Source: Brasilonema angustatum HA4187-MV1
GTDB taxonomy: Bacteria > Cyanobacteriota > Cyanobacteriia > Cyanobacteriales > Nostocaceae
DNA length: 64,000 nt
Direction: 5' to 3'
Assembly (NCBI GenBank): GCA_019359695.1
Contig: JAHHGV010000032.1
Span: forward strand, 1-64,000
The notes beneath the pieces were generated by a model. That model had not been told where the DNA came from and did not search any database. It saw only the letters and a list, made by a program, of their open reading frames with translations. This document shows, piece after piece, positions 4,389 to 43,980 of this stretch. Made by a program: the position numbers and the translations under genes. The number at the start of each line of letters is the position of its first letter. Within the stretch, counting starts at the first letter, position 1.

Positions 4389-4423
4389 AATACAATCTTC
4401 AAAAGAAAAATTGACCCTTGCAA
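4389..4423 (+). promoter_or_regulatory. Copy F of the shared 36-bp promoter/operator motif
   Basis: First half AATACAATCTT and second half TTGACCCTTGCA, with 17 bases from CTT to ACC. The element ends 62 bases before the ankyrin gene ATG. It has the same architecture as eight other copies in the window (10974, 11452, 25701, 29446, 36882, 36951, 37033, 43939). Confidence 0.6.
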
Positions 4424-4484
4424 CCTGAAAGCAGGATTTCTTAGACTTCTGTATATCAACGCGTAAATCCTTAATTTTGCAGAT

Positions 4485-4988
4485 ATGAGTAGTCTAGTTG
4501 CCGCAGTGAAGAATAACGATCTTGAATTAGTCAAAAAATTAATTGAAAATGGTGTAGACGTTAACCAAATAGACAGCAGTGGAAATAGCCTCTTGATTGT
4601 CAGTTCTGCTAACGGTCAATCTGAAATGGTGAAGCTACTTCTTGACTCTGGTGCTGATATTCACGCGGTAGACTCAAGTATGAAAGCCACTGCACTCCAC
4701 GCTGCTGCCTATTTGAGGCATCCAGAGGTTATGGAAATTCTGATTGAGTATGGAATTAATATAGATGCTCAGGGTCCTTACAACGGATACACTGCCTTAC
4801 ACGATGCGGTTTGGCAAAATAATGTTGAAGGAGTTAGGCTCCTGGTAAATGCAGGTGCGCGCTTAGACATCAAAGGCAAGAAAGGAAATACCCCGTTAGA
4901 TCTTGCCAAAAAAAGTGGGCACAAAGAAATTGTTAGCATCCTTTCTGGAGCGATCCCTCTAGTTAGTCATAGCTCCCAAAGCTTTTAG
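4485..4988 (+). CDS. Ankyrin-repeat protein, 167 aa
   Basis: About five ankyrin repeats fill the protein. Typical elements are DLELVKKLIENGVDVNQID, LLIVSSANGQSEMVKLLLDSGADIHAVD, TALHAAAYLRHPEVMEILIEYG, TALHDAVWQNNVEGVRLLVNAGA and TPLDLAKKSGHKEIVSIL. There is no signal peptide, so it should act in the cytoplasm as a protein-binding scaffold; the partner is unknown. The last nine codons (SHSSQSF region) overlap by 30 bases the 3' end of the convergent NB-ARC gene at 4959. The natural end after the last helix may thus have been replaced by antisense sequence. Regulatory motif F lies 62 bases upstream. Its position between two NB-ARC/WD40 paralogs suggests, without proof, a link to those sensors. 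Confidence 0.85.
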   Translation: MSSLVAAVKNNDLELVKKLIENGVDVNQIDSSGNSLLIVSSANGQSEMVKLLLDSGADIHAVDSSMKATALHAAAYLRHPEVMEILIEYGINIDAQGPYNGYTALHDAVWQNNVEGVRLLVNAGARLDIKGKKGNTPLDLAKKSGHKEIVSILSGAIPLVSHSSQSF

Positions 4989-7900
4989 AGAAGCAATAGT
5001 TGCTTGTGTTAAACCTATAACACCAGTAATGTTCATTCCCTCTAGTGGTCTTTCGTTTCTGAAAGTTTTTAAACACTCACCGGTCAAAACATCCCATAAC
5101 TTAACTGTCCCATCTTCACTGCCACTAAGCAAAGTTTTACCATCCGGACAAAAAACAACTGACCTTACCCAGTGGGTATGACCCTGTAAAGTTTTAAGAC
5201 ATTCACCGGAGTTAATATCCCACAATTTTACCATTTGGTCTACGCTACCACTGGCGAGGATATTACCTTGAGGACTAAAGGCAACTGACAACACCCAACT
5301 CGTGTGTCCCGATAAAGTTTTGAGACATTCGCCTGTGCCAACATCCCAGAACTTCACTGTTTTATCTTTACTGCCACTGGCTAAAATCCTACCTTGAGGA
5401 CTGAAAGCAACTGACAATACCCAACCGCTATGTCCCAACAAGTTTTTAAGAGTTTGACCTGTGCTGACATCCCATAACCTCACGGTTTGGTCATCACAGC
5501 CACTTGCCAATATATTACCAATCTCCTGAGCCTGCGGCACGGCTGCGCCGAACGCAGACGCTATGCCTACGGCACGGCTGCGCCTATCGCTAACGGGACT
5601 GAAGGCAACGGACCATACCCCATGACTATGTTCCAGTGTTCTCAAGAGTTCACCAGTGCTGACATCCCATAACCTCACAGTTTGGTCATCACTGCCACTT
5701 GCCAGGATATTGCCTTCAGGAGCAAAGGCTACTGCTTTTACCCAACCAGTATGTCCTTGCAAAATTTTATAGCATTGGTTAGTGCTAGTATTCCATAACC
5801 TGACTTCCTGGTCGTAACTGCCGGTTGCTAGAATATTACCTTCAGGACTGAAGGCAACGGTTCGTACTCGGTTAGCGTGTCCCAGCAAAGTTTTGTTACA
5901 CTGACCAGTGCTGACATCCCAACAGCGTACAGTTTGGTCATCACTGCTGCTGACAAAGGTTTTGCCACTAGGAGCAAAGGCAACAGACATCACCCCGTTA
6001 CTATATCCTTGCAAGATTCTCAAGGTTTGACCAGTGCTAACATCCCAAAGCTTGACAGTTTGGTCATCACTTCCACTGGCAAGGATATTACCTTCAGGAC
6101 TGAAAGCAAGTGACCAGATTAAACCAGTATGTCCTTGCAAGGTCATAAGGCATTCACCAGTGGTATGATCCCAAAGCTTGACAGTTTGGTCATCACTGCC
6201 GCTAGCTAGCATTTTACCTTTAGGAGCAAAGGTGACTGACCTTACCCGGTTGCTATGTCCCTGCAAAGTTCTGAGGTATTCACCAGTGATGGCATCCCAA
6301 AGCTTGACGGTTTGGTCATCACTGGCACTAGCTAGGGTTTTGCCATCCAGACTGAAAGTCACTGAAGAGATCGAACCAGTATGTCCCTGTAAAGTTATTT
6401 TACATTCACTTGTTGTGAAATTCCATAGCTTTAAAGTTTTGTCACTACTAGCAGTGGCTAGGATCTTACCTTGAGGACTAAAAACAACTGACAATACCCG
6501 ACCAGTATGTCCCTGCAAAATTTTATGGCACTGACTGCTGCGAAGATCCCACAAACTCACCGTTTGGTCATCACTGCCACATGCTAAGATATTACCTTTA
6601 GAACTGAAGGCAACTGTTTGTACGCGCTTAGGGTGTCGAGTGAAAGTTTTCAGGCATTCACCGCTGCTTGTGTCCCACAACTTCACACTCTGATCAGCAC
6701 CAGAACTACTGATGGTATCGCCATCCGGACTGAAGGCGATCGCTCGAACCCAACTGATATGTCCTTGACAGGTTAAAAGTTCTTCACTATCAGTAAAGTC
6801 TTGCCATAAGCAAATCTTACCATTAGCGTCACTCATCGCTAAAACTTTTCCGTTGGGACTGAATGCTACCGCAGAAACTCTACTGAAGTTTTTCGTAAAA
6901 ACAGACTTGGATAAATTAGCGTTTTGGAAATTGACTTGAGGTAAATTTACACCTCTTAGGTCAGCTTGCCAAATACTCATATTAGAAAAATCATAACCCC
7001 TCAAATCAATTTTTAGCTGACTAAGCATATTGATAATATTTCCGCCTGTATATCCTCGTTCCTGTAAAAATTCTTTTTGCAGCAATGCTTTTATTTCAAC
7101 CAGTTGATGTTCAAGTCTTTTTTGGGTTTTAAAAATAGTGAGCAATTCATCTATAAGTGGTTTGAGGATAAAGCGTATTTGAGCAACTCTTACATATTCT
7201 TTGGATTGAGCCTTACTCAAAGCATGATGTCTAAGAAGCACAATTTGCTGAGTGACTATCTCTTCACATACTTGCTTTATTAATTTGCTAGTCACATACT
7301 CCATTAATACAGGTTCTATTGTGAACAATCGAGTGCTTTTCTCTACTTGTGTAGGTGTAGCCTTGTCGATGAGACTTCTGCGCACCAGAGACTCCAAAGC
7401 CTCTAGTAATCTCTGTGGTGTTCCTATTGATATAATATCTTCTCGCAATTGGAAGAGCGTCATCGGCTCACGATTAATGCAGAACCAGTACATCACCTCA
7501 CGCTCCTTATCCGACAAGCGCTCAAACTGCTGGTCTAAAAGAGTAGTAATATCGCCAAAAACTGCGATTTCTTGGTTTAAAAACTCAGAAATGTTACCAT
7601 TAAAGACATCTTGAATCGTTGTTGCAACTATCTTCAAAGCTAATGGATTGCCACAATAGCGTTCAAAGAGTGCCTTCTTTTTAGAATCTTCTCCAGATAG
7701 ACCTTTGTGGCGCAAAATTCTTTCTCCTTCCTCCTCACACAGACCTCTCAGGTGTAATGAGCGAACAGGTAGTGCTTCTCCTTCGAGTAACGCCACGTCT
7801 TTCGGTTTTTCCCGAGAAGTCAGCACTAAGCAGCTTTGATGAATTGTTTGTCCCACCCGTTTTATAAGTTGACCATAATCCTCATAGTCTTCTCGATAGC

Positions 7901-8609
7901 TTCCAGCAATAGCGCCACTTTGTAGAATGGTCTGTGCGTTATCGAGTATAATGAGACAGTGGTATTGTCGCAAATATGAAATCAGTTGCGACAATCTGCC
8001 GTCTACGCTTTTTGGTAAGTCAGCTTCACAAATCTGGGCGTCACAGAAAAATTGAATTAAGTTAGCCAAAAGCTCGAAAAGTGGAGGGGCATTGTAGAGC
8101 GATCGCCAAACAACATACTCAAATTGCTCCTGAATTTCATGGACTAACTTAGCAGCAACAGAGGTTTTACCAATACCCCCCATTCCCAACAGTGCGACAA
8201 CTCGGCATTGCTCCGTCAGGAGCCATTGCTCCAGCATAGCCAATTCTGTTGTACGTCCACAAAAATCTGACACACAAACAGCTTCGTCCCAATCAATGCG
8301 CTTGAGAGTTTTCAAGCCTTGAAGACTCGCCGAATTGGGATTGCTCTTTGAATAGTCGCTTTTCTTCAATTCTAAATCAAATGCCATAAAGAAACGAACA
8401 AGCGTTTGTTTGTCAACCCCTTCTTGGCGAGCGAGTACTTTCGCGACTGTATTCGGAGTTAATTCAGCGCGTTCACTTATTTCTTCCACGGTGTACTTCA
8501 TACCAGATTTTTCGCGAAATTCCCATTCGAGTTTTCCTTTCTGAAGTTTTTGCCAGCCTTGGAGAGTAAGTATAACGCCACGACTCCGTTTTGAATTACG
8601 CCGATTCAT
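4959..8609 (-). CDS. HTH / NB-ARC ATPase / 14 x WD40 repeat protein, paralog with in-frame repeat insertion
   Basis: This 1216-residue protein has the same layout as 509-4087. It has a basic HTH-like N-terminus (TVEEISERAELTPNTVAKVL), NB-ARC with GMGGIGKTS (Lys148), Walker B CLIILDNAQ and TSREKP, a pentapeptide-like stretch, and fourteen WD40 repeats. The ATPase halves are strikingly similar, so the pair is a tandem duplication that has since diverged in the propellers. WD40 repeat 11 carries about 24 extra residues (SPVSDRRSRAVG...AQEIGNILASG) from a GC-rich repeat inserted without breaking the frame (5521-5594). The insertion lies in a loop between strands, so the propeller may still fold. 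The start ATG fits the N-terminus of the paralog. Confidence 0.9.
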   Translation of the reverse strand: MNRRNSKRSRGVILTLQGWQKLQKGKLEWEFREKSGMKYTVEEISERAELTPNTVAKVLARQEGVDKQTLVRFFMAFDLELKKSDYSKSNPNSASLQGLKTLKRIDWDEAVCVSDFCGRTTELAMLEQWLLTEQCRVVALLGMGGIGKTSVAAKLVHEIQEQFEYVVWRSLYNAPPLFELLANLIQFFCDAQICEADLPKSVDGRLSQLISYLRQYHCLIILDNAQTILQSGAIAGSYREDYEDYGQLIKRVGQTIHQSCLVLTSREKPKDVALLEGEALPVRSLHLRGLCEEEGERILRHKGLSGEDSKKKALFERYCGNPLALKIVATTIQDVFNGNISEFLNQEIAVFGDITTLLDQQFERLSDKEREVMYWFCINREPMTLFQLREDIISIGTPQRLLEALESLVRRSLIDKATPTQVEKSTRLFTIEPVLMEYVTSKLIKQVCEEIVTQQIVLLRHHALSKAQSKEYVRVAQIRFILKPLIDELLTIFKTQKRLEHQLVEIKALLQKEFLQERGYTGGNIINMLSQLKIDLRGYDFSNMSIWQADLRGVNLPQVNFQNANLSKSVFTKNFSRVSAVAFSPNGKVLAMSDANGKICLWQDFTDSEELLTCQGHISWVRAIAFSPDGDTISSSGADQSVKLWDTSSGECLKTFTRHPKRVQTVAFSSKGNILACGSDDQTVSLWDLRSSQCHKILQGHTGRVLSVVFSPQGKILATASSDKTLKLWNFTTSECKITLQGHTGSISSVTFSLDGKTLASASDDQTVKLWDAITGEYLRTLQGHSNRVRSVTFAPKGKMLASGSDDQTVKLWDHTTGECLMTLQGHTGLIWSLAFSPEGNILASGSDDQTVKLWDVSTGQTLRILQGYSNGVMSVAFAPSGKTFVSSSDDQTVRCWDVSTGQCNKTLLGHANRVRTVAFSPEGNILATGSYDQEVRLWNTSTNQCYKILQGHTGWVKAVAFAPEGNILASGSDDQTVRLWDVSTGELLRTLEHSHGVWSVAFSPVSDRRSRAVGIASAFGAAVPQAQEIGNILASGCDDQTVRLWDVSTGQTLKNLLGHSGWVLSVAFSPQGRILASGSKDKTVKFWDVGTGECLKTLSGHTSWVLSVAFSPQGNILASGSVDQMVKLWDINSGECLKTLQGHTHWVRSVVFCPDGKTLLSGSEDGTVKLWDVLTGECLKTFRNERPLEGMNITGVIGLTQATIASLKALGAMTN
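5521..5594. repeat. GC-rich repeat inserted in frame in a WD40 repeat
   Basis: About 72 extra bases interrupt WD40 repeat 11 of the 4959-8609 gene. The insert contains a 19-base direct repeat, CCTRCGGCACGGCTGCGCC, at 5531-5549 and 5566-5584. Its GC content is far above the flanks. The other thirteen WD40 repeats lack it, which fixes its boundaries to within a few bases. Confidence 0.75.
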
Positions 8610-9016: not shown

Positions 9017-9766
9017 TTACCAAGGCAAAGCAAAAGGCCCACCAAATTTTCTCATTTCTGCAAAAAAGCCGCCTTGAGAACCACCGTCTGGTAGTGTAGC
9101 TAAATAGACAGCGGTTTCTGCACCTTCCTCAGCAGTGAGCGGGGCATCTGCTCCTCCAATATCGGTTTTCATCCATCCTGGAGAATAGTTATTGATTAGG
9201 ATATTAGTATCCTTCAACTCCCTCCCCAACAAACAAGCAACTCCATTTAAACCAATTTTTGATAGCCGATATGACGGAGCAAGGGGATAATAATCATTGG
9301 GTATATAATTTAAGGAAGCCATTTCAGTAGATACATTGACAATGCGCCCATAATTATGCTCTTTCATCATAGGAATCAGTGCTTGACAAAGACGTAAGGG
9401 ACCCACCGAATTCACCGCAAATGTCGAGATAACCGTATCTAATTTAGCAGTCAAGACACTGCCTTCTTCAGCTTCTTTTGCAGGATTTACCCCTGCGTTA
9501 TTGACTAAGATGTCTACTCTCCCGTACTGTTCGTGTAGCGCGTTTACAAAGTTTTCAACACTCTTGTCATCAGTAACGTCCAGAGGTAGAAAGTCCACTT
9601 CAAGACCTTGTTGTGCTAATTTTTCGCAAGCTTCCAATCCCTTTGCTTTGTCCCGACCGGATATAATGACTTGAATATTGTCAAGCTTTGCCAGTTTTCT
9701 AGCAATCTCAAAACCAAGACCTTTGTAACTTCCTGTAACAACTGCAACTCTTTTTTCTGTGTTCAT
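9017..9766 (-). CDS. Short-chain dehydrogenase/reductase, carbonyl-reductase-like
   Basis: A classical SDR of 249 residues. The cofactor motif is TGSYKGLG (residues 11-18), NNAGV follows the fourth strand, and the catalytic pair appears as SYRLSK (Tyr-x-x-x-Lys). The ending NYSPGWMKTDIGG and VYLATLPDGGSQGGFFAEMRK resembles carbonyl reductases that reduce aldehydes and ketones with NADPH; substrate is not readable from sequence. The enzyme is cytoplasmic. It is the second gene of a two-gene minus-strand unit, 45 bases after the SDR at 9812-10528, so both probably share the upstream promoter region. Confidence 0.88.
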   Translation of the reverse strand: MNTEKRVAVVTGSYKGLGFEIARKLAKLDNIQVIISGRDKAKGLEACEKLAQQGLEVDFLPLDVTDDKSVENFVNALHEQYGRVDILVNNAGVNPAKEAEEGSVLTAKLDTVISTFAVNSVGPLRLCQALIPMMKEHNYGRIVNVSTEMASLNYIPNDYYPLAPSYRLSKIGLNGVACLLGRELKDTNILINNYSPGWMKTDIGGADAPLTAEEGAETAVYLATLPDGGSQGGFFAEMRKFGGPFALPW

Positions 9767-9811: not shown

Positions 9812-10528
9812 TTACACGGGCTGGGCGGATGGTACAACCAAAAGCCTCGGGATGAGGACGTGGGGAGGCTGCTCTAACACGAAACGAACGCAACGGGCGA
9901 TGTCCTGCGGTTGCAGTAAACCCCCAGAAGCGATGAATTCTTTGTGATTGTGATCCCAGTGGTCATACAAGCCTGTATCCACGCTGCCTGGGGCAATGGA
10001 CGCTACGCGAATGTTAGTTCCTGCGAGTTCCATCCGCAGCGAATCTGTGAACGCCTCAATGGCAAATTTGGTTCCGCAGTAGGCACCAAATTGCGGAGTT
10101 GTTTTCAACCCGGCGATACTCGAAGTGTTGATTAAAAAGCCGCTGCCAGATTCCTTGAAGTGCCGCAGCGCCGTGTAGGCCATCCTATAGGCAGATTCCA
10201 CATTGATCCGAACCATCTGGCAGATTGCTTCGACATCGACATCAACAATCGCCCCCACAGTCATAACGCCTGCGTTGTTGAAGACTACGTCGAGTCGGCC
10301 AAAAGTTTGGATAGCAAAGTCTACCAATTTTTGTGGCAATTCAGGGTCTGTGATTTCACTGGGAACGGCTTTAGCATTTTGTAGATTCGACGCGAGGTGT
10401 TCGAGTTTATCTTGCGATCGCGCTGTGAGTACTAGACTCATGCCTGCTGCATCTAGGTCCTTAGCGACAGCCTCACCAATACCACCACTAGCACCGGTGA
10501 TGATGGCAACTTTATTTTGTAAATTCAT
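9812..10528 (-). CDS. Short-chain dehydrogenase/reductase, classical family
   Basis: A 238-residue SDR with TGASGGIGEAV at residues 11-21, NNAGVMTVGA, a catalytic INTSSIAG serine strand and YCGTK (Tyr/Lys). This is the YdfG/3-hydroxy-acyl type fold used by many NADP-dependent alcohol or carbonyl reductases; the substrate is unknown. It is first in the operon with 9017-9766. Its N-terminus closely resembles the truncated SDR head at 44056-44139. Both loci have the same regulatory motif upstream, although here (copy G) it lies about 445 bases away, with a MITE in between. Confidence 0.88.
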   Translation of the reverse strand: MNLQNKVAIITGASGGIGEAVAKDLDAAGMSLVLTARSQDKLEHLASNLQNAKAVPSEITDPELPQKLVDFAIQTFGRLDVVFNNAGVMTVGAIVDVDVEAICQMVRINVESAYRMAYTALRHFKESGSGFLINTSSIAGLKTTPQFGAYCGTKFAIEAFTDSLRMELAGTNIRVASIAPGSVDTGLYDHWDHNHKEFIASGGLLQPQDIARCVRFVLEQPPHVLIPRLLVVPSAQPV

Positions 10529-10864: not shown

Positions 10865-10973
10865 GGCTATACGGAATTTAACCACAGTAGCTCTTGTTGT
10901 TTGAGTTATTTTTATGAATGCACATAGGCTGCGCCCTGATCATTTTTACTTTAGGGAGTACAATACACAACCG

Positions 10974-11009
10974 CAAGGGTTAAAATTTAGAAGGAAGTGT
11001 GCATTTTTT
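10974..11009 (-). promoter_or_regulatory. Copy G of the shared promoter/operator motif (minus strand)
   Basis: On the minus strand it reads AAAAAATGCACACTTCC, then TTTTAACCCTTGCG, with 17 bases from CTT to ACC. It faces the SDR operon starting at 10528. The long gap (about 445 bases) includes the 152-base MITE, so the spacing was probably shorter before that insertion. Confidence 0.55.
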
Positions 11010-11059
11010 CGATTTTACTTCCTTCCCTGTCTAAGATTACCTGTCTTCTTTATTTTCTT

Positions 11060-11265: not shown

Positions 11266-11451
11266 TTCTTCTGGCGGTTCGAGAGTAGTCATTTTTTTAG
11301 TTTTTTTATCGATCTGGGTGTTTCATCGACATGAATATGGCTAAGTTAAAGAATAGATCGAACCTAAACTATTAACCATTTCTGCCGTTGAAAAAAATAG
11401 CAAAAATAAGATAAACTTTATCGGGGTTATATCAATATAAAAGCTTGAGCG

Positions 11452-11490
11452 AAAGAATACAAACTTCTTCCGAAAGTTCAACCCTTACAA
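11452..11490 (+). promoter_or_regulatory. Copy I of the shared promoter/operator motif upstream of glgX
   Basis: First half AAAGAATACAAACTTC, second half GTTCAACCCTTACAA, with 17 bases from CTT to ACC. It lies about 390 bases upstream of the glgX ATG, so it would give a long leader. It is the only copy seen ahead of the glgX-to-kinase gene run. Confidence 0.5.
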
Positions 11491-11877
11491 GGTTGTTTTG
11501 TACTCCTTAAACTTAATTATTACTGGTGAACTAAAAGTCAATGTAGTTACCAGTGCACAATTGACGCCTAAAGTACAAAAATTACCTTATTAAGCGCTCA
11601 AAAGTAAGGAGGTGCATCTTATAACTTTGCATAAAGATGTATCTGATTTACCTTTTTTTCAACGAGATAATTGTGACATTAAGAACAGAACGTACTTGCT
11701 AATCCAAGCCTTAAGTGCAACACAGGTAACGAATAAACCCTTAGCGGAATATTCCATAATGAATAAAAAATGTAAAAGTAGTTAACACAAAAATCAAGCC
11801 TTTCGCAAAGCCTTAAAACGTTGAGGCAAAATCGAAATAAACAACTAATTAAATGCCGTAAGGATAGAAAGGGCAAA

Positions 11878-13998
11878 ATGACTTTAACTACAGCTAAACA
11901 ACTGGTTAAACCAGCAACAAATCAATACCAATTTGAATCGGGATGTGCACATCCTTTGGGTGCAATACCGGACAAAAACGGAGTAAACTTCTCAGTATTT
12001 TCAGAGCATGCCAGATCTGTTGAACTTTTGTTGTTTGATAAGTCTGATGCTCCGGAACCTACACACATTATTCAATTAAACCCAAGGACAAATAAAACCT
12101 TTCACTTTTGGCATATCTACGTGAGAGGATTAAAACCCGGCGCTCATTACGCCTACCGGGTTGACAGTGCTCAGGGTTTACATGGGGAAGGACACCGCTT
12201 TAACAAAAATAAGGTACTGCTTGATCCCTACGCTAGAGGAAACACCAACACCCTTTGGAAGCGCAACGATGCTTTGGGATCACAAGACAACTTAGCGACT
12301 TCGATGCGTAGTGTAGTTGTCGATATATCGGATTACGACTGGGAAGGCGATCGCCCCATCAATCGCTCAATGAGTGAGACCATCATTTATGAAGTACATG
12401 TTGGCGGATTTACTAAGTCACCTTCCTCAGGCTGCAAACATCCCGGTACTTTTTCTGCAATCATTGAGAAGATTCCTTACCTCAAAGAGTTGGGAATAAC
12501 TGCTGTTGAACTCCTGCCAATATTTGACTTTGATGAAAAGAACAATCTCCGAGAAGTTGACGGCAACCCACTGAGTGATTACTGGGGATATAATCCACAC
12601 AGCTACTTTGCTCCTGAAGGTTCATATTGTGTTCTGTGTGATGTCGGAAACCATCTCACGGAGTTTCGGGATATGGTCAAGGCGTTGCACAAGGAAGGGA
12701 TTGAGGTCATCCTGGATGTGGTCTTTAACCACACCGACGAGGGAAACCATGAAGGTCCAATTATCAATTTTAAAGGCTTTTTCAATAGCATCTTCTACCA
12801 CCTAGTGTCCTGGGACAAGCAGTACTACATGGACTACTCTGGGTGTGGAAATACCGTCAACTGTAATCACCCAATAGTGCAGAAGTTGATTGTAGATAGC
12901 TTAGAATTTTGGGTCAAAGAGATGCACGTTGATGGCTTTCGGTTTGATGAAGGTTCTATTCTATCCCGTGGCCAAGACGGAGCACCAATGGTTCATCCGC
13001 CGGTAATATGGCAAATTGAAACGTCTGAAATTCTTGCTGACACCAAAATTATTACTGAAGCTTGGGATGCTGCTGGGCTTTATCAAATTGGTTACTTCCC
13101 TGGATATCGTTGGGCAGAATGGAATGGGCGCTTTCGAGACGATGTCCGGCGTTTTGTCAAGGGGGATGCAGGAATGGTTGGAGCAGTCGCTTGGCGTATT
13201 GCTGGAAGTGCGGATCTCTACCAATCAAGTGGACATTTACCAATTAACAGCGTTAATTTCATTACCTGCCATGATGGATTTACTCTCAATGATTTGGTTT
13301 CATACAATGACAAACACAATGAAGCCAATGGTGAAGACAATCGGGATGGTATTAATGACAATTTAAGCTGGAATTGTGGTGCTGAAGGAGAGACTGACAA
13401 TCCAGAAATTGATGCATTGCGTCGCCGACAGATTAAGAATTTTACAGCCATTCTGATGCTTTCCCAAGGAATACCAATGTTTGTGGCTGGTGATGAAATC
13501 AGACGCACTCAAAATGGTAATAACAACGCTTACTGCCAGGATAATGAGATTAGTTGGTTTGATTGGAGTCTTGTAGAGAAGAATGCTGATCTTTTCAGGT
13601 TCTTCAAGCTGATGATTAATTTCCGCAACTGCTATTGCCATTCTGCTTTACGCCGTCGTGATTTTTTCTCTGGTGAAGTTAATGAGCGGGGCTTGGCGGA
13701 TATTTCTTGGCATGGTTGTCAGTTATTTAACCCAGGTTGGCATGATCCTCATGCTAGAGTTCTCGCATTTACGTTGGGGGGTTTTGAAGAAGAAGCAGAT
13801 ATTCATGTCATGTTCAATATGTACTGGGAAGCACTCGACTTTGAAATCCCCTCTGTTGAAGGTAGGGAATGGTACAAAGTGGTAGATACCGCTCTTGCTT
13901 CTCCTATGGATATTGTGGAACCAGGGGAAGAGACTGTAGTTTCAGGCAATGTTTATTCTGTTAAAGACCGTAGCATTGTTGTTCTCATTTCTAAATAG
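11878..13998 (+). CDS. glgX: Glycogen debranching enzyme (isoamylase-type, GH13)
   Basis: A 706-residue alpha-1,6-glucosidase that trims branches of glycogen after phosphorylase action. Residues about 20-115 form the CBM48 domain (HPLGAIPDKNGVNFSVFSEHA). The GH13 barrel shows region I DVVFNH, the nucleophile Asp357 in GFRFDEGS, the acid/base Glu394 in IITEAWD and the third acid Asp466 in TCHDGF. GFRFDEGS deviates slightly from the usual FRFDLAS but keeps the catalytic Asp. I place the start at the ATG at 11878, preceded by GAAAGGG. A TTG at 11821 would add a 19-residue basic extension the family lacks. It heads a run of co-oriented genes; the next gene starts 38 bases on. A glgP gene lies at 59 kb. 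Confidence 0.92.
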   Translation: MTLTTAKQLVKPATNQYQFESGCAHPLGAIPDKNGVNFSVFSEHARSVELLLFDKSDAPEPTHIIQLNPRTNKTFHFWHIYVRGLKPGAHYAYRVDSAQGLHGEGHRFNKNKVLLDPYARGNTNTLWKRNDALGSQDNLATSMRSVVVDISDYDWEGDRPINRSMSETIIYEVHVGGFTKSPSSGCKHPGTFSAIIEKIPYLKELGITAVELLPIFDFDEKNNLREVDGNPLSDYWGYNPHSYFAPEGSYCVLCDVGNHLTEFRDMVKALHKEGIEVILDVVFNHTDEGNHEGPIINFKGFFNSIFYHLVSWDKQYYMDYSGCGNTVNCNHPIVQKLIVDSLEFWVKEMHVDGFRFDEGSILSRGQDGAPMVHPPVIWQIETSEILADTKIITEAWDAAGLYQIGYFPGYRWAEWNGRFRDDVRRFVKGDAGMVGAVAWRIAGSADLYQSSGHLPINSVNFITCHDGFTLNDLVSYNDKHNEANGEDNRDGINDNLSWNCGAEGETDNPEIDALRRRQIKNFTAILMLSQGIPMFVAGDEIRRTQNGNNNAYCQDNEISWFDWSLVEKNADLFRFFKLMINFRNCYCHSALRRRDFFSGEVNERGLADISWHGCQLFNPGWHDPHARVLAFTLGGFEEEADIHVMFNMYWEALDFEIPSVEGREWYKVVDTALASPMDIVEPGEETVVSGNVYSVKDRSIVVLISK

Positions 13999-14036: not shown

Positions 14037-16208
14037 ATGAATAATATGGGCTTTCAATTTTCTGATTTGATTGCTGGGTACATTACAAATTTTGATTCCA
14101 CCAAGGAAGAGCTTGGTACTTTCAATCTGAAAACATCAGACGGGAGGGAATTTGAAGTAGCACTGACTTCAATGACGTATGCTGAGTTAGTACGCAATTT
14201 GGATGAGCCTTATTTTGATTGCACGAGCCAGATAAGTTCAATGCTCGTTCCAAATCGGTATCTTTTTGTGTATGGCACTTTCTATCCTGAAGCGAGTGAG
14301 TACAAGTTTGAAGCTAAACACATTGTTTTTCTGGGTAGAACAGAAAATGACTATCTTTTTGAAAGACCAGATTGGTGGGTCAAGCAAGTACGAAGTCTTG
14401 CCAATTTTTACTTAAAAGCCCAGTTTGAAAATGGCGAAATAGATTATCGCAAATATCGCACTGGTATCGGCTTGGTTGGTTCTAAAGAAGATAGTACTCG
14501 TCAAGAAACTGACACAATTTCACGCCTGGTTTACGGTTTTGCCACAGCTTATATGTTGACCGGAGATGAGCGGTATCTAGAAGCTGCGGAAAAAGGTACC
14601 GAATATCTGCGTGAACATATGCGTTTTCTGGATGAGGGCGAAGGTATTTGTTATTGGTATCATGCCACTGACGTGAAGCCAGATGGCAGTGAGCAAAAAA
14701 TATTCTCCTCGGAATTTGGGGATGATTATGATGCTATCCCAGCTTATGAGCAAATTTATGCGCTGGCTGGTCCTACCCAGACTTATCGGATAACAGGCGA
14801 TCCACGCATCATCAAAGATATCGAGTTGACCATCAATCTGTTTAACAAGTATTTTCTGGACAAGACAGATAAAGGGGGATTTTTCTCCCACATCGACCCG
14901 ATTACTCTCAGCCCTTACCCTAAGTCTTTAGGTCATAACCGCGCGAAAAAGAACTGGAACTCAGTAGGTGATCATGCCCCAGCCTATCTGATCAATCTCT
15001 GGCTAGCGACTGGCGAGGAAAAATACGCACTTTTCCTTGAGTACACGTTTGACACTATTGAAAAGCGGTTTCCAGATTACGAACATAGCCCCTTTGTTCA
15101 AGAACGTTTTCATGAGGATTGGAGCCATGATACAACCTGGGGGTGGCAACAGAATCGAGCAGTCGTAGGTCATAACCTCAAAATTGCCTGGAACCTGATG
15201 CGGATGAACCACCTGAAAGCAAAAGAAAAGTATGTGGATCTAGCAGAAAAGATTGCACAAATCATGCCTGCAGTCGGCAGCGACCAACAGCGTGGGGGGT
15301 GGTACGATGTTGTGGAACGCATTCTCAAACCAGGAGAAGAAGTACACCGCTTTGTCTGGCATGATCGGAAGGCTTGGTGGCAGCAAGAACAGGCTATCTT
15401 AGCCTACCTCATTTTGGCAGGCTCACTTGATAAACCTGAATATCAGCGCTTTGCACGTGAAGCCGCAGGTTTCTATAACGCCTGGTTCCTCGATTACACG
15501 GGTGGCGGTGTCTATTTCAATGTTCTGGCAAATGGAGTTCCTTACTTGCTAGGAACTGAGCGAGGCAAGGGCAGTCACTCAATGAGCGGTTACCACTCGT
15601 TTGAGCTAGCCTACTTGGCTTGTGTTTATACGAACCTTATGATTACTAAGCAGCCGATGGATTTGTACTTCAAGCCAAAAGCGGGTGGCTTTAAGGATAA
15701 CATTCTGCGGGTTGCACCAGATATCCTACCACCTGGTAGCGTGCGGATTGGCGAGGTATGGATCAACGGGCAAAAGCATTCCGATTTTGATACCGAAAGT
15801 TTAACAGTCAAATTGCCATCTACTCAAGACGAACTGAAAGTTCGAGTCAGACTTGTTCCTACTCAAGTATCTTTCGATGCAACATTGTTAGAAGTGACTG
15901 ATAATATTGCCAAGATTTCTTTAACTGGGTTATTAGATGCCAGTGCTATAGAACGTTTTCAGGAGGTGTTGATTAGAGCGACAGAACAGCCAGTCAAACG
16001 CGTTGTCTTACTGCTACAAGACTTAGAATGTATTACTGCTGCTGGTGTACGAGCTCTTATTTTCAGTAAACAAAAACTGGGACCTCATGTTGACATCTAT
16101 ATAGTTGGTGCTCCCGATAACGTGAAGCAATTCCTCAAGGCGAGCGCATTCTGCGAAGGTGTCACTGTGTTGGATCAGTATGAAACTGTTGAGATAGTCG
16201 GCGTGTAG
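14037..16208 (+). CDS. Epimerase-fold (AGE / alpha-alpha-barrel) protein fused to a C-terminal STAS domain
   Basis: A 723-residue fusion. Residues about 1-110 form a small N-terminal beta-rich region. From about 130 to 540 there is an (alpha/alpha)6 barrel resembling the N-acylglucosamine 2-epimerase/cellobiose epimerase family (RLVYGFATAYMLTGDERYLEAA, GGWYDVVER, HDRKAWWQQEQAILAYLI, YHSFELAYLA). After a linker, the last 100 residues are a STAS domain of the anti-sigma-factor-antagonist kind (LLEVTDNIAKISLTGLLDAS, VVLLLQDLECITAAGVRAL). A catalytic sugar-binding barrel joined to a partner-switching module is unusual and suggests that sugar status is tied to signalling. It follows glgX by 38 bases and precedes a response regulator and a kinase. 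Enzymatic activity is unproven. Confidence 0.8.
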   Translation: MNNMGFQFSDLIAGYITNFDSTKEELGTFNLKTSDGREFEVALTSMTYAELVRNLDEPYFDCTSQISSMLVPNRYLFVYGTFYPEASEYKFEAKHIVFLGRTENDYLFERPDWWVKQVRSLANFYLKAQFENGEIDYRKYRTGIGLVGSKEDSTRQETDTISRLVYGFATAYMLTGDERYLEAAEKGTEYLREHMRFLDEGEGICYWYHATDVKPDGSEQKIFSSEFGDDYDAIPAYEQIYALAGPTQTYRITGDPRIIKDIELTINLFNKYFLDKTDKGGFFSHIDPITLSPYPKSLGHNRAKKNWNSVGDHAPAYLINLWLATGEEKYALFLEYTFDTIEKRFPDYEHSPFVQERFHEDWSHDTTWGWQQNRAVVGHNLKIAWNLMRMNHLKAKEKYVDLAEKIAQIMPAVGSDQQRGGWYDVVERILKPGEEVHRFVWHDRKAWWQQEQAILAYLILAGSLDKPEYQRFAREAAGFYNAWFLDYTGGGVYFNVLANGVPYLLGTERGKGSHSMSGYHSFELAYLACVYTNLMITKQPMDLYFKPKAGGFKDNILRVAPDILPPGSVRIGEVWINGQKHSDFDTESLTVKLPSTQDELKVRVRLVPTQVSFDATLLEVTDNIAKISLTGLLDASAIERFQEVLIRATEQPVKRVVLLLQDLECITAAGVRALIFSKQKLGPHVDIYIVGAPDNVKQFLKASAFCEGVTVLDQYETVEIVGV

Positions 16209-25740: not shown

Positions 25741-25876
25741 GCGGAAAGCCTCATTTGTTAGATTTGTTGCTGTCAAGTTTCGCATCGTGCGTAAAGAAAA
25801 ATTACCGTGCGGAAATACTAGATGTCTGACTGTATGAATGTGAAATCAATACTATCAAATAGATAATCAAAGTTTT

Positions 25877-29445: not shown

Positions 29446-29484
29446 TAAAAAATGCAAACTTGCTGCAAAAATTAAACCATTGTA
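29446..29484 (+). promoter_or_regulatory. Copy B of the shared promoter/operator motif
   Basis: First half AAAAAATGCAAACTTGC, second half ATTAAACCATTGTA, 17 bases from CTT to ACC. It lies about 100 bases before the truncated GMC head at 29586 and drives, by inference, the MFS operon behind it. Confidence 0.65.
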
Positions 29485-29585
29485 TTCTTATTTTATTTTG
29501 TATACAGTTTTGAATATCAAGGTTAATAGTTTTAGCTTTATTTTTTGTCTAACTCTCACTAGGTAATCCATAATATGTAAAATTT

Positions 29586-29751: not shown

Positions 29752-30960
29752 ATGAGAAAAATTATAGTAAATTATTTAGTGGTTTTTCTGATAACTTGTA
29801 TAACTGCGTTGGGGTCAATTTCCGTATCGGTATATTTACTTTCTTTACCTGTCATAACAAAATCCCTGAATTGCGACCCTTCAGCTACACAATTTACAGT
29901 TACTGCATTCCTTTTTATTTTTGCTCTATCCCAATTAGTGTATGGATCTTTGTCTGATCGATTCGGTAGAAAATCACCAATTCTAGCCGGAATAATTGTA
30001 TATACACAGGGAAGCATTCTGTGTGCTTTAGCTTATGACATAAATATATTGATCATTGGACGATTAGTACAAGGTATCGGCGCAAGCGCGGGTCCTTCAC
30101 TGGGAAAAGCAATTATCCGCGATATGTACGAAGGTTCTAAGTTAACATCGTCTTTAGCTATAGTTACAGCAGCGGTAGCTTTATCGCCTATGCTAGGTCC
30201 ATTTATGGGCGGTTATATAGATACTTTTTGGGGTTGGCGTGTTATATTTCTTGCTTTGGTAATTGTAGCAGTTATGCTTGGTTTAACCGTTAATTTTCTA
30301 TTACCAGAAACTATTCAGCAGCGGAACTCTAGAAGTACACATATCAAGGTAATTTTTCAACGTTATAAGATTTTAATTGCCGATAAAGAATATATTTTTG
30401 CGACGTTGTGTGCAGGGTGTCTTACAGCAGGTAATTTTGCCTGGAATTCTGCTGCTCCTTTTGTTTTTTCTGACTTTTTTCATGTAAATGCTGATAACTA
30501 TGGCACTCTATCAGTTTTTGTCGGTGCAGGGTACCTGACAGGCACGATATCTACCTCTTTTTTATCAAGATACCTGACAAATTATAGAATTGTCTACTCA
30601 GGTCTGTTACTGTCTCTTATTTCGTCAGTATTGTTGTTTTTACCGTCAATCTTTTTGTCATCTGCTTGGCAAATGTTGATACCTATGATAATGTACACAG
30701 TTGGAATGGGTATTGTTATTCCGGCTGCTGCTGCCTGTGCTATGTCTCGTTTTTCTGAAATTGCAGGTTCAGCAGCAGGTCTTTTCGGAGCAATTCAAAT
30801 ATTCATAGGGGCTTTAGGAAGTGCAATAATCAGCATATTTCACACGAGCAGCGCGCTACCTGTTGTTTGTATTCTTTTTGCATTTGCTTTGCTAGCATTT
30901 TATTGTGGTCAAATCGCACTTTTTCCTTTGCGAGCAAAAATCATCTCCAAACTCAAATAG
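29752..30960 (+). CDS. MFS multidrug exporter, Bcr/CflA type
   Basis: A 402-residue, twelve-span proton-driven exporter. Diagnostic motifs are LPVITKSLNCDPSATQFTVTAFL after span 1, the loop 2-3 motif GSLSDRFGRKSPIL, and the span 4-5 motif GRLVQGIGASAGPSLGKAIIRDMYEG typical of Bcr/CflA drug-resistance proteins. It should remove a small organic molecule from the cytoplasm. The ATG follows AAGGA with 6 bases spacing. It is the first intact gene behind motif B and the truncated GMC head, and it is followed closely by an isochorismatase-fold protein (32 bases) and a SnoaL-like protein, probably one operon. Confidence 0.9.
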   Translation: MRKIIVNYLVVFLITCITALGSISVSVYLLSLPVITKSLNCDPSATQFTVTAFLFIFALSQLVYGSLSDRFGRKSPILAGIIVYTQGSILCALAYDINILIIGRLVQGIGASAGPSLGKAIIRDMYEGSKLTSSLAIVTAAVALSPMLGPFMGGYIDTFWGWRVIFLALVIVAVMLGLTVNFLLPETIQQRNSRSTHIKVIFQRYKILIADKEYIFATLCAGCLTAGNFAWNSAAPFVFSDFFHVNADNYGTLSVFVGAGYLTGTISTSFLSRYLTNYRIVYSGLLLSLISSVLLFLPSIFLSSAWQMLIPMIMYTVGMGIVIPAAAACAMSRFSEIAGSAAGLFGAIQIFIGALGSAIISIFHTSSALPVVCILFAFALLAFYCGQIALFPLRAKIISKLK

Positions 30961-35185: not shown

Positions 35186-35195
35186 TATATGTACG

Positions 35196-36725
35196 TTATG
35201 AAAGGTCTACCCACACCGACTTAGTGTGTGTGTAATTCTCCATGACTTCGGTTCCAAGTTCACGCCCAAAGCCCGAAGCCTTATAGCCACCAAATGGGAT
35301 TGAGACGTCGAATAAGTTGTAAGTGTTGATCCAGCATGTGCCTGCCTTCATTGCGCGTGCAACTCGGTGCGCTTTCTTAATGTCACGCGTGTGTACGCCG
35401 GAAGCCAGACCAAACTGTGTGCCGTTGGCAAGATTTATAGCTTCTTCTTCGGTGTCAAACGGAGTAACAGCTAGAACAGGTCCAAAAATTTCTTCTTGAA
35501 CAATACGCATATCATAAATCGCATCAGTGAAGATAGTCGGTTCGTAATAGAAGCCCTTGTTGGAATTACCATTGCCATTAGGGTTGAAAGGTCTACCACC
35601 GATGCGTAGCTTTGCACCGTCTTCATGACCGAATTGAACGTACTGGGATATCTTCTCGAACTGCGACTTATCAGCCAGAGGTCCGAAGATCACAGTCGGG
35701 TCTAATGGATCTCCTTTCGACATCTGCTCAACATGACGAACGAGTTGCTCAATAACTTCTTCATAAACTGAACGCTCCACAAGAAGCCGAGAGCCAGCAG
35801 TGCAGATCTCGCCCTTATTGTAGAAGATACCAAAGAAAGCGCTTGTAACGGCTGAGTCCAGATCAGCATCGGCGAAGATCATATTGGCTGATTTGCCGCC
35901 CAGTTCCATGGTAACTTTCTTAAGGGTGTCAGCAGAGTTCTTGATAATGCCAATACCAACATCCGTGGAGCCTGTGAAAGCGATTTTATTGATACCAGGA
36001 TGCTTGACTAGTACATCGCCAATCTTGCTACCCGGTCCGGTAATGAGATTGAAAACACCTTCTGGAATACCAGCTTCGGCGAGCAGTTGGGCAAGTTTAA
36101 TGGCTGTGAGTGGAGTTATTGAGGCAGGTTTATGGATTACGGTGTTTCCAGCAGCCAGCGCTGGTGCAATCTTTGTGCCTGAAAGGATCATCGGAAAGTT
36201 GAAAGGTGTGATCGCCGCGACCACGCCCAAGGGCTCGCGTAACGTATAGGTAAGATTTGGTGTGTGCGTTGGTGGAGGGGACACATGCCGTGCTTTACCC
36301 TCGATTTGTGAAGCTATTCCACCATAGTAGTAGAATAAATCAGCCATTAGGGGCACATCAACTGTGTGGGAAAAAGCAATTGGCTTGCCCATGTCGATAG
36401 TTTCCCGATAAGCCAACTCGTCGCCATGCTTTAAGATTAAATCGCCAACTTTCGTCAAGATCCGTCCGCGCTCATGACCACTCATTTTTGGCCACGGACC
36501 ATCATCAAATGCTTTCCGGGCAGCTTTGATCGCTGCATCAGCATCTACTTCAGTTGCTTGTGCAATCTCAGTAATCGCTTCTTCAGTCGCAGGGTTAATG
36601 GTAGGTTTAGTTCGACCATCCTGCGCGTCGCGCCACTCACCATTTATGAAAAGTTTACCCGGGGCAATTTGCATCTCGTCTGGCGCGATCGCTGTGCCAT
36701 CTGCAAAGGTAATGCTTTGGTACAT
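35196..36725 (-). CDS. Aldehyde dehydrogenase family protein
   Basis: A 509-residue NAD(P)-dependent aldehyde dehydrogenase. The fold markers are all present: PFNFPMILSGTKIAPALAAGNTVIHKPA for cofactor binding, FTGSTDVG, the general base Glu in MELGGKS (about 270), the nucleophile Cys in GEICTAGS (about 305), EEIFGPVLAV and PFGGYKASGFGRELG. It converts aldehydes to carboxylic acids; substrate range is not predictable, but betaine-aldehyde and broad aliphatic/aromatic types share this pattern. The gene is divergent from the DJ-1/decarboxylase operon at 37169, and motif H faces it from the shared 443-base region. The two units are thus likely induced together. Confidence 0.92.
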   Translation of the reverse strand: MYQSITFADGTAIAPDEMQIAPGKLFINGEWRDAQDGRTKPTINPATEEAITEIAQATEVDADAAIKAARKAFDDGPWPKMSGHERGRILTKVGDLILKHGDELAYRETIDMGKPIAFSHTVDVPLMADLFYYYGGIASQIEGKARHVSPPPTHTPNLTYTLREPLGVVAAITPFNFPMILSGTKIAPALAAGNTVIHKPASITPLTAIKLAQLLAEAGIPEGVFNLITGPGSKIGDVLVKHPGINKIAFTGSTDVGIGIIKNSADTLKKVTMELGGKSANMIFADADLDSAVTSAFFGIFYNKGEICTAGSRLLVERSVYEEVIEQLVRHVEQMSKGDPLDPTVIFGPLADKSQFEKISQYVQFGHEDGAKLRIGGRPFNPNGNGNSNKGFYYEPTIFTDAIYDMRIVQEEIFGPVLAVTPFDTEEEAINLANGTQFGLASGVHTRDIKKAHRVARAMKAGTCWINTYNLFDVSIPFGGYKASGFGRELGTEVMENYTHTKSVWVDLS

Positions 36726-36881
36726 ATTGTTCTGCTTACTCTATCAAATGAGTTAGATCTGTTGAAAAGCGCCAGCCACTTAAAGTAAATGTCTTTAGAA
36801 AAAACTTTATTGGCGCTGTAAATGCTACCAAGTATTGCGGGGATCGATAATACTGTAAGCTTAGGAGGCGAAAAACACGGT

Positions 36882-36919
36882 TACAATGGTCTATATTTCG
36901 GTGAAAGTGTACATTCTTT
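36882..36919 (-). promoter_or_regulatory. Copy H of the shared promoter/operator motif (minus strand)
   Basis: On the minus strand: AAAGAATGTACACTTTC, then ATAGACCATTGTA, 17 bases from CTT to ACC. It ends about 157 bases before the aldehyde-dehydrogenase ATG. Confidence 0.6.
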
Positions 36920-36950
36920 CGGTTCTGTAGAACTCAAATTTTGTTATCTA

Positions 36951-36987
36951 AAAAAACAAACCTCTATCGAAGATTAGACCCTTGCAG
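36951..36987 (+). promoter_or_regulatory. Copy E of the shared motif, weaker first half
   Basis: First half AAAAACAAACCTC (CTC instead of CTT), second half GATTAGACCCTTGCA. The 17-base phase to ACC is kept. It is about 80 bases upstream of copy C in the same direction. Confidence 0.45.
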
Positions 36988-37032
36988 CTATATTTTACAT
37001 TTATTAAACTTACATCGCATCCAGTTATCAAA

Positions 37033-37070
37033 ACAATGTAAACTTGCTCCAAAACATTAACCCTTGTAGT
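37033..37070 (+). promoter_or_regulatory. Copy C of the shared promoter/operator motif
   Basis: First half ACAATGTAAACTTGC, second half CATTAACCCTTGTA, 17 bases from CTT to ACC. The first gene of the DJ-1 operon starts about 100 bases downstream. Confidence 0.65.
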
Positions 37071-37168
37071 TGTGTTTTACGCTTTTTAAACTGATGACTA
37101 AAGACTTAACAAAAAGTCACTAGCATTTTTAGTTAAGAATCTATTGCCCCTAAGGATATTTAACCAAT

Positions 37169-37852
37169 ATGATACCTAGATCCCTTGGTGGGAAAAAAAT
37201 TGCCGTTCTCCTCGAAAGTGAGTTCATTCCTGAAGAAATTGAAGCTTATCAAAAGCGCTTCTCGGAACTCAAAGCAACTGTGCATTTAATGTCTAGACTT
37301 TGGGGTAACCAGAGTGTTCGTTTTTTCAGCGATGAAGATACGGGCAATACACCTCAAACTATAGAGGTGAACGTTGATTTTCAGAATGTAGACGTTAACG
37401 ATTATGCCGCTGTGATTATGTCTGCAAACTACACCAGCGTGCGCCTGCGTTATTTTCAGCCGCCACAGGGTGAGCCAATCAGTGCTGAACAAGTTCGCAC
37501 CTCACCGGCAGTGCAGTTTTACGCCAAAGCGATGGCGAATCCCAAAATCGTTAAAGGGGCTCTCTGCCACGGGCTGTGGATACTGACGCCAGTACCCGAG
37601 TTGCTCAAAGGGCGACGAGTTATTTGCCACGAGGTAGTACTTGCAGATATCCTCAATGCTGGCGCAATTTACGAACCCTCGTCCTCTGGTGTTGTGGTAG
37701 ACAGCGACCTTATTACCGGTCGCTCAAAACACGAAGTTGAACCATTCATTGATGCCATTACTGAACAAATCCAACAAATATCTCTTGGCACCAATCGCTT
37801 TTCAAGCAAAAGACCTCCCACCTCTGTCTCAAGAGTAAGAGCCGCAAGCTAA
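37169..37852 (+). CDS. DJ-1/PfpI superfamily protein, 227 aa
   Basis: The fold of the DJ-1/PfpI class is visible. There is an N-terminal strand and acidic site (IAVLLESEFIPEEIE), a central beta-strand VIMSANYTS and the nucleophile elbow ALCHGLWIL with Cys133 followed by His134. The closing GVVVDSDLITGRSKHEVEPF matches the LITSRGPG-type segment of the family. Members act as glyoxalases/deglycases, chaperones or amidases; which one cannot be told. The basic Ser/Arg-rich tail (RFSSKRPPTSVSRVRAAS) is extra. It is first in a co-directional run with a second DJ-1-type protein, a ThDP enzyme and SnoaL-like proteins, behind motifs C and E. Confidence 0.82.
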   Translation: MIPRSLGGKKIAVLLESEFIPEEIEAYQKRFSELKATVHLMSRLWGNQSVRFFSDEDTGNTPQTIEVNVDFQNVDVNDYAAVIMSANYTSVRLRYFQPPQGEPISAEQVRTSPAVQFYAKAMANPKIVKGALCHGLWILTPVPELLKGRRVICHEVVLADILNAGAIYEPSSSGVVVDSDLITGRSKHEVEPFIDAITEQIQQISLGTNRFSSKRPPTSVSRVRAAS

Positions 37853-40562: not shown

Positions 40563-40600
40563 TTAACAAAAAAGTTCACTAATTAAAAGAGAGAAAAACG

Positions 40601-42727: not shown

Positions 42728-42765
42728 CTAAGTTCACTGATTTTGTGACAGGAAGGAGCGAAGTA

Positions 42766-43203
42766 ATGGCTTTGCTAAAAGTTTCTCAGATGGCAATGAG
42801 TTGCAAAGATCCGATTGCAACTGAAAAGTTCTACACGAAATATTTCGGCTTTAAGCGATCGCGAGTTGCACCAATCGGCAATAATGAGCAGATTGTCTTT
42901 ATTAAGTTAGGGGATATGTACCTTGAACTCTTCCAAGCGAAGGGAGAAACTCCTGTCCCTCCAACTGATAAAGATGGACCAACTTATCCAGCTTGGCGGC
43001 ATTTTGGTTTCCAAGTCGATGATGTCGATGCCAAACTGGCTGAAATGGGCAAAGATGCAAAAATTACCCTAGGCCCACTCAATTTTGATACCTTTATTCC
43101 AGGGTGGCGCACAGTTTGGGTATCCGATCCAGATGGCAATATCGTTGAGATAAGCCAGGGATATGTCGATCAGGATAATCCACCCCTTTTGGAGGCAAGT
43201 TAA
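42766..43203 (+). CDS. Glyoxalase/bleomycin-resistance (VOC) family protein
   Basis: A 145-residue vicinal-oxygen-chelate protein with the paired beta-alpha-beta-beta-beta modules. Visible are VSQMAMSCKDPIATEKFYTKYFGFK, the metal-ligand type strand DMYLELF, RHFGFQVDDVDAKLAEM and WVSDPDGNIVEISQ. The Glu of YLELF, the His of RHFGF and the Glu of VEIS are in ligand positions, but the first ligand position (usually His) is taken by MAMSC. Metal binding may be altered. I choose the ATG at 42766 behind AGGAAGGAG rather than a GTG 21 bases upstream. It is the last gene of the accessory run and could act on a reactive carbonyl. Confidence 0.82.
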   Translation: MALLKVSQMAMSCKDPIATEKFYTKYFGFKRSRVAPIGNNEQIVFIKLGDMYLELFQAKGETPVPPTDKDGPTYPAWRHFGFQVDDVDAKLAEMGKDAKITLGPLNFDTFIPGWRTVWVSDPDGNIVEISQGYVDQDNPPLLEAS

Positions 43204-43938
43204 CTAAGCGGGAAAACCTTCGGGTAATGTTCGCCACTTACATCCCTGACATAGAACATACAGCGGTTTTCTGTAAGGTGGGCATTGCTCATTAATATCT
43301 CAAATGTCTATCACATCGGCTTTTCTAAGCAATGCCCAACGCCAGATGCTACCCTACGGGAAGCCCTCCGGGTTCGGGGGTTCGCAATCGACGCTCACCG
43401 CCAAGACTGCGACCCCCTCACCGCCTTCGGCGTCTACAAGCCGGGAAACCCGTCCAACGCACTGGCTCCCCTACGATTTGTGGTCTATTCATATGAAAAC
43501 TGCTGTAAAGAATGGCGTAAATAACAGCATACATGCATACTTTACGAAGACGACCAGCAATTTTTGCCTTTGTAAACAGCTGTGCAATCAATTCCCACTG
43601 TTCCCATGTCTAATTACTAGTACAGTACCAATACGATTCAGTTAAGCATTTTTTTCTTCTCTGTGTGTCACACCAGGTGCTACGGCTGACGCCACGCCTT
43701 ACGGTGAGACCAGCGCTGCGGGAGGGTTTCCAACGCCAGATACCTAGGTCGGGAGACCCTCCTACAGTACTGGCTCCCCAACGCAGTGCTCCCCAAGACC
43801 GCACTGCGTCCTAATGACTAATGACTAATGACTGCCAAAACTAGTTAACTTTATTTGTACCGATCTACTTAGAGCCTTGCTTCAGTAGAACGAGTTGATA
43901 AATAATTTTTGTGGTTCAACTTTGAAAAAAAGAATGTG
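43204..43938. other. Repeat-rich intergenic region
   Basis: No gene. Two GC-rich repeat blocks (about 43340-43460 and 43680-43805) and a tandem heptamer run TAATGAC (near 43813). Short open frames across them are not genes. Confidence 0.55.
43376..43424 (+). repeat. 49-base dispersed repeat, intact copy
   Basis: The block starts GGGGGTTCGCAATCGACGCT and ends GACCCCCTCACCGC. I find it base for base, inverted, at 32343-32391, and split by an insertion at 11118-11137 and 11218-11240. Confidence 0.8.
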
Positions 43939-43980
43939 ACCTAAAAAATGCAACCTTGGTTCAAAAAATTAACCATTGTA
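43939..43980 (+). promoter_or_regulatory. Copy D of the shared promoter/operator motif
   Basis: First half AAAAAATGCAACCTTGG, second half AATTAACCATTGTA, 17 bases from CTT to ACC. It shares the extension ACCTAAAAAATG with copy B. It lies 75 bases before the truncated SDR head and 170 before the MIP channel. Confidence 0.65.

Follow-up and report, generated by a model that had tools for sequence, protein, structure and literature searches.

The stretch considered here comprises positions 1 to 64,000 of contig JAHHGV010000032.1 of Brasilonema angustatum HA4187-MV1 (forward strand; this whole 64,000-nucleotide stretch is called the window hereafter, and the contig that bears it is C93 in our numbering). 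It contains promoter-type boxes of one kind ahead of an ankyrin-repeat gene, an SDR pair, a run headed by GlgX, two family-less genes, a cation-efflux gene, an MFS run, an aldehyde dehydrogenase (ALDH) gene, a DJ-1 run and a MIP channel gene, and it is this box, together with an AraC-family protein as its candidate reader, that is analyzed here. The original prediction had described nine copies of a 36-bp motif, all of which we found at the places and on the strands claimed, but had overlooked a tenth, box J, which scores 40.4 bits. The spacing from CTT to ACC is, as described, 17 bases in eight copies (seven that have CTT, and copy E, which reads CCT) and 18 bases in copy A. The ten boxes are as follows.

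Box F, 4384 to 4447, plus strand, -10 TTAGAC; precedes the ankyrin-repeat gene 4485-4988.
Box G, 10948 to 11011, minus strand, -10 TAAAGT; precedes the SDR genes 9812-10528 (420 bp away) and 9017-9766; divergent from box I.
Box I, 11450 to 11515, plus strand, -10 TAAACT; precedes GlgX (11821-13998), AGE-epimerase/STAS, response regulator (RR)-thioredoxin reductase and cNMP-binding histidine kinase genes.
Box A, 25700 to 25764, plus strand, -10-like TTAGAT, one extra base between the halves; precedes 25877-26518 and 26575-27030, both without a Pfam family.
Box J (the tenth), 29084 to 29147, minus strand, -10 TAAAAT; 399 bp before the cation-efflux gene 28074-28685; divergent from box B.
Box B, 29446 to 29509, plus strand, -10 TACAGT; precedes MFS (29752-30960), isochorismatase and SnoaL genes.
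Box H, 36856 to 36921, minus strand, -10 TAAGCT; precedes the aldehyde dehydrogenase gene 35196-36725; divergent from boxes E and C.
Box E, 36950 to 37012, plus strand, -10 TAAACT; distal member of a tandem pair before the DJ-1 gene 37169-37852.
Box C, 37030 to 37092, plus strand, -10 TAAACT; proximal box before the run of DJ-1, DJ-1, thiamine pyrophosphate enzyme, SnoaL and glyoxalase genes.
Box D, 43942 to 44005, plus strand, -10-like TTACCC; precedes the MIP channel gene 44151-44954.

When the nine copies were aligned with their flanks, two shared blocks were seen together with a third block downstream, the consensus reading roughly CGAAARAATRCAAACTT, 4 bases, CGAAARATTRACCMTTGYA, and then 17 bases separating the hexamers TTGYAN and TAAACT. 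The 36-bp element is real, but the conserved length is greater, a -10 hexamer lying 17 bp beyond it. The two halves do form a direct repeat about two helical turns apart, with a half-to-half identity that peaks at 57% at offset 20 and amounts to 19-35% at offsets 14-17 and 22-26, and the motif is linked to a promoter, since a sigma70-like -35 forms the end of its second half (ACCMTTGYA), with a -10 of the TAAACT type at a constant distance of 17 bp below it. The features of a sigma70-type promoter, i.e., predicted -35 and -10 hexamers with a 17-bp spacer, are present, both hexamers being imperfect; TANNNT is found in seven of the ten window copies.

A 40-bp matrix was built from the upstream part alone of the nine copies in order to lessen the circularity of a model that includes the -10; in leave-one-out scoring, the nine copies reach 24-45 bits. 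In 54 related stretches (925 kb, window excluded), this matrix detected 104 sites at 16 bits or more, all of them with at least 20 bits and 102 of them unique. TANNNT occurs at the 17-bp spacing in 80 of the 102 unique sites, and no other offset between 8 and 29 has it in more than 22, although this 78% is somewhat favored, as the related stretches had been fetched for matches to the full model including the -10. The sites whose upstream part alone reaches at least 40 bits answer that concern, with TANNNT at 17 bp in 41 of 50 (next offset, 12), and when Brasilonema sp. CT11 was left out and near-copies were thinned, 50 of 67 sites still had it (next offset, 11). In a logo of 109 unique sequences among 114 model matches, for which the alignment model includes the -10, positions 1, 2, and 6 of the hexamer are T in 100%, A in 94%, and T in 96% of the rows (9, 11, and 26 gapped rows, respectively, set aside).

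Two conserved blocks at a fixed distance could also mean that an alternative sigma factor reads them as its -35 and -10, as the original prediction had considered, but the sigma70-like -10 found 17 bp further down, below the second half in those 80 of 102 sites, makes this very unlikely. The J-Box of SigJ in Nostoc punctiforme is likewise a promoter element common to a Nostocales regulon, but it is an extended -10, GGGaAtacT (PMC6495340), and by eye none of the ten sites matches it.

Because the -10 follows the second half at a fixed 17 bp, the 36-bp motif is best read as an activator site. Its layout is that of an AraC/XylS class II site, with two asymmetric units repeated directly at a distance of about 21 bp, of which the near one overlaps the predicted -35; this judgment was made before any araC gene had been seen near the motif. 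XylS/Pm of the Pseudomonas TOL plasmid (PMC5481539) is alike in having two homologous direct-repeat units, each consisting of an A and a B box, overlapping activator and polymerase sites, and a plasmid-encoded AraC-family activator. It differs in the sequences of its boxes and in that Pm is read with sigma32 or sigma38, that XylS has an N-terminal effector domain, whereas none was recognized in the AraC protein described below, and that in the island one box type recurs ten times.

As regards position, none of the 104 related sites lies inside an open reading frame (ORF) of at least 150 aa, contrary to the refuting condition named with the original prediction, matches as common inside genes as upstream of them, and 84 of the 102 related sites with a downstream ORF in their stretch lie at most 450 bp from it. 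In a first control of 60 stretches (768 kb), which was partly preselected in that 31 of the 60 were loci already without a model match, the matrix found no site at 16 bits or more and one at 12 bits or more (15.1 bits, near another AraC gene, L022). A weak match in the window itself (50375-50414, plus strand, 15.9 bits) starts 28 bp before, and enters, the acetyltransferase ORF 50403-51251 and is probably due to chance.

Within the 8.5-Mb genome, the strict pattern AATGYAMMCTTN{10,20}ACCMTTGYA has four exact matches, all four in the window, and its reversed control has none. The looser CTTN{14,15}ACCMTTGYA yields 11 matches, 5 in the window and 6 outside; since the reversed control gives 7, the outside matches are at chance level. 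When a 66-position model trained on the nine copies was run over the genome (E<=10, 150 of 2500 first-look candidates scored), it returned 29 matches, of which ten, at 40-58 bits, all fall in C93:4384-44005, while the other 19 score 10-17 bits elsewhere; the tenth strong match (29084-29147, minus strand) was absent from the training set of the model. The best match outside the window in the whole genome has 16.8 bits. It is located at L196:7845-7880 (G000:C4:31845-31880), about 280 bp past the 3' end of another AraC gene, and may be a relic, or may belong to a paralog as its box. On 22 stretches of the same genome picked regardless of matches (440 kb), the 40-bp matrix found nothing at 16 bits or more (best, 11.3). 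Unrelated genes do share the motif as a regulon would, but since all ten strong sites sit in one island, on a stretch of 40 kb, a global, genome-wide regulon was rejected on the strength of the whole-genome model scan.

A candidate reader of the box is an AraC-family protein encoded at G000:C48:5330-6046 (238 aa by the longest reading) on contig C48, where the ortholog of the cluster-associated AraC lies; the own genome has 23 PF12833 places, none of them on C93. PF12833 is above its cutoff at C48:5558-5791 and also in a relative (L124, 80 bits), and MarA, RamA, AraC, and SoxS chains match the protein within residues 52-159, which agrees with an HTH_18 double helix-turn-helix (HTH) domain of about 100 residues. 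No N-terminal effector or dimerization domain was recognized: about 50 residues precede the AraC domain, and for the 25 NCBIfam matches shown the alignment begins at residues 46-72; an alignment of 22 AraC sequences was used for this question. The MarA subgroup is not known to have such an N-terminal domain either. The MarA/SoxS/RamA subgroup is alike also in that the DNA-binding domain of the island AraC aligns to MarA over 103 residues with no large sensor domain ahead of it; it is unlike in that the island protein has a C-terminal extension of about 80 residues, a linked orphan gene, and strong sites in one island. One cysteine in the C-terminal part (EAQRLQAC in the own protein, L195:5330-6046) is kept in 21 of 22 orthologs and is a tyrosine in L281; it may have a redox role. 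The AraC Npun_BF041 from a plasmid of N. punctiforme (PMC7660261) was considered and not used, as its orthology was not established.

The box and this protein are inherited together. Among 149 genomes (own included), the motif is present in 12 at E<=1e-3 and in 5 at E<=1e-9, and the AraC ortholog (E<=1e-45) is present in 5, the own genome included, which are the same five that have the motif at E<=1e-9. None of the 144 genomes without the ortholog has a strong motif and seven have a weak one, which corresponds to a Fisher p of 2e-9, or 1e-6 if those seven are counted as motif-bearing, values that overstate independence since the genomes are related and kinship is ignored. In a second set of 49 genomes chosen by the AGE-STAS gene as marker, AraC matches at E<=1e-35 occur in 22, of which 16 reach at least 200 bits, and the motif (E<=1e-3) occurs in 19: it is found in 16/16 genomes with AraC at 200 bits or more and in 3/33 without (G156, G157, and G192), the 200-bit line having been set after the gap from 203 to 142 bits had been seen. 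The two sets overlap in two genomes with identical places (G004 is G149, Brasilonema sp. CT11, L115; G010 is G168), and together they contain 19 different genomes with both motif and AraC ortholog, among them Brasilonema, Nostoc, Anabaena, Desmonostoc, Fischerella, Scytonema, Mastigocoleus, and Pleurocapsales. Of 80 loci round the AGE-STAS gene, 15 have the motif at E<=0.2, and the occurrence of the island is sporadic. The araC ortholog is also found near island genes on the plasmids pNe_3 of Nostoc edaphicum CCNP1411, typed as conjugative, and pC052_B of Nostoc sp. C052, whose araC stretches hold three and five of the 104 boxes, respectively; four further plasmid records gave HTH-length AraC matches only. 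NB-ARC genes were seen near araC on both pNe_3 and pC052_B.

Box and gene are also physically linked. Sixteen contigs carry araC together with listed sites, and all 56 of these sites are at a distance of 1.7-42 kb from the gene; the count covers shared contigs, while 28 sites in the same genomes and all those in the own genome (G000), G153, and G170 are on other contigs of these fragmented assemblies. In Brasilonema sp. CT11, araC and box F are on one contig about 10.5 kb apart, and C48 of the own genome is collinear with one part of that contig and C93 with the next, so that the own araC probably lies just left of the window. The 22 kb round the GlgX-AGE run of Nostoc sp. WHI are without the motif, and its sole listed motif is 1.7 kb from araC; in a Peltigera cyanobiont, araC sits between the AGE-STAS and RR-thioredoxin reductase genes. 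In a tree of HTH domains, built on only 90 columns, AraCs from genomes with the motif fall into a single group with support 98/92; the two changes that this motif group needs arise because the own copy, which stands there under L024, was outside the label list.

Taking layout, co-inheritance, and linkage together, we consider it probable, at roughly 80%, that an AraC-family activator encoded with the island reads the box upstream of sigma70-type promoters and so switches the island operons together, AraC being its likely reader. Each copy would then be a sigma70-type promoter (-35 TTGYAN, 17 bp, -10 of the TAAACT type), with its transcription start predicted accordingly, and would be joined directly at its upstream end to an activator site. 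The asymmetric units of this site, about CGAAARAATRCAAACTT and CGAAARATTRACCMTTGY, are repeated directly at a distance of 20-21 bp, and the near unit runs into the -35. AraC would most likely occupy both units side by side and recruit RNA polymerase in the manner of class II activation, and the bound protein would turn on the island operons together.

Direct repeats near the -35 also serve regulators of the OmpR or NarL type, and the island has genes for a histidine kinase and for a fusion of an RR with thioredoxin reductase, so that the box might instead be the site of such a response regulator, whose input could come from the cNMP-binding histidine kinase encoded in the GlgX run. We regard this as unlikely, given that Pfam shows no DNA-binding domain in the fusion (the scan for such domains covered part of the island genes), that the two boxes within each unit differ, as expected of the two HTHs of AraC, and that 30 of the 33 marker genomes without an AraC ortholog are also without the motif. 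That AraC binds the box but represses is slightly less probable still: a protein bound at the near unit, which overlaps the -35, could stand in the way of polymerase, but the weak hexamers (TTGYAN and TAAACT) suit an activator-dependent promoter, and the layout resembles XylS/Pm (PMC5481539). The many similar blocks in one region could, finally, be remnants of a recently spread repeat carrying a promoter, which we deem hardly credible, as the two units and the -10 are the best conserved parts and the spacer is less so, spacer and flanks diverge, and the boxes recur before the same genes (DJ-1, GlgX, and SDR) in different genera.

Besides the selection effects given above with the 78%, the first control, the 200-bit line, and the tree, several points weigh against activation by AraC. 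The own araC is on a different contig, the adjacency of C48 and C93 resting on Brasilonema sp. CT11, with no exact overlap of their ends, and window copies A, D, and F (3/10) are without TANNNT. The seven genomes with weak motifs are relatives beyond the five, and in the marker set, G157 has a strong motif but no AraC ortholog (a 5.0-Mb assembly, perhaps incomplete), G156 has motifs and a diverged AraC only, and G192 has a partial, borderline match. The multi-genome scans had strict filters and scored part of the candidates, and co-occurrence does not separate AraC from other genes traveling with the island. The next outgroups in the HTH tree are mixed, with L109 (G103) and L221 (G156) from motif genomes, L112 (G099) from one with weak motifs, and L219 (G177) from one with none. 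Lastly, no box was found within 800 bp upstream of araC or its partner gene at 18 loci (best, 5.7 bits), so there is no sign of autoregulation.

The partner, a gene for a 188-aa protein, stands directly upstream of araC in 15 of the 19 AraC genomes and on both plasmids, and was not seen in the stretches of G042, G162, G170, and G171. The own protein matched no Pfam or NCBIfam family at E<=0.001; an alignment of 13 members gave chance-level matches only (best PDB E, 0.076), as was the case for Pfam UPF0669, which matched 5 of the 13 (best E, 0.012, below its cutoff in the member shown). A single-sequence fold of a Fischerella relative had a mean predicted local distance difference test score (pLDDT) of 34.7 and was not used. 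As no more than about 50 residues precede the DNA-binding domain of AraC, the signal may reach it via this orphan protein, encoded beside araC in most genomes; that the partner is a sensor is our guess. The fuller picture, a mobile multi-operon island with a private pair, an AraC in which no sensor domain was recognized and a 188-aa orphan as possible sensor, driving ten boxes with no strong box elsewhere in the genome, is offered tentatively, as it falls somewhat short of even odds. A lead to OrrA and osmotic stress (PMC13131328) was kept as a possible signal and rejected as a site, no binding motif having turned up there under the search terms used.

The genes behind the 104 related sites are most often DJ-1 (25), GlgX (14), SDR (13), GMC (6), and OprB (3), with one site each before ALDH, ankyrin, unknown-149, MIP, and UbiX genes; 36 sites have no window homolog at the cutoff, and 2 are at a stretch edge. 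The scanned part of those 36 includes 4-alpha-glucanotransferase, glyoxalases, a heavy-metal P-type ATPase, GMC, HlyD, SnoaL, and a lactonase, as well as P450s, a methyltransferase, a 2Fe-2S protein, a 6PGDH-like protein, and CMD. In several Nostoc clusters, too, the DJ-1 gene is preceded by a tandem pair of boxes, at distances of about 101 and 182 bp. The role in stress or in carbonyl/redox metabolism which the original prediction proposed would fit this gene list, and in what is the weakest step of our argument, the predicted functions suggest that the island may combine glycogen or glucose mobilization with aldehyde and dicarbonyl detoxification under stress.

Further features of the window may be recorded here. 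On its flanks, the island has genes for large WD40 proteins, of which one contains an nSTAND domain, and for a protein with a caspase domain (509-4087, 4959-8609, 51629-55585, and 55783-57999). The product of 14037-16208 is a fusion of a GlcNAc-2-epimerase and a STAS domain and has relatives in Planctomycetota, Competibacter, Chloroflexi, and Paenibacillus; the gene at 16393-18054 encodes a response-regulator receiver fused to a thioredoxin-reductase-like domain and adjoins the cNMP-binding histidine kinase gene. A fragment of an IS66 transposase lies within the island at 24961-25203.

In the openly available cyanobacterial literature, most subscription papers being outside the search, we found no account of such a box or regulator. 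The box would be the private control circuit of a scattered gene island and not a genome-wide code, and would define sharply a cyanobacterial AraC regulon of one box, one candidate activator, and about ten operons in the own genome. The island, scattered among cyanobacteria and plasmid-borne in two Nostoc, carries its own likely regulator.

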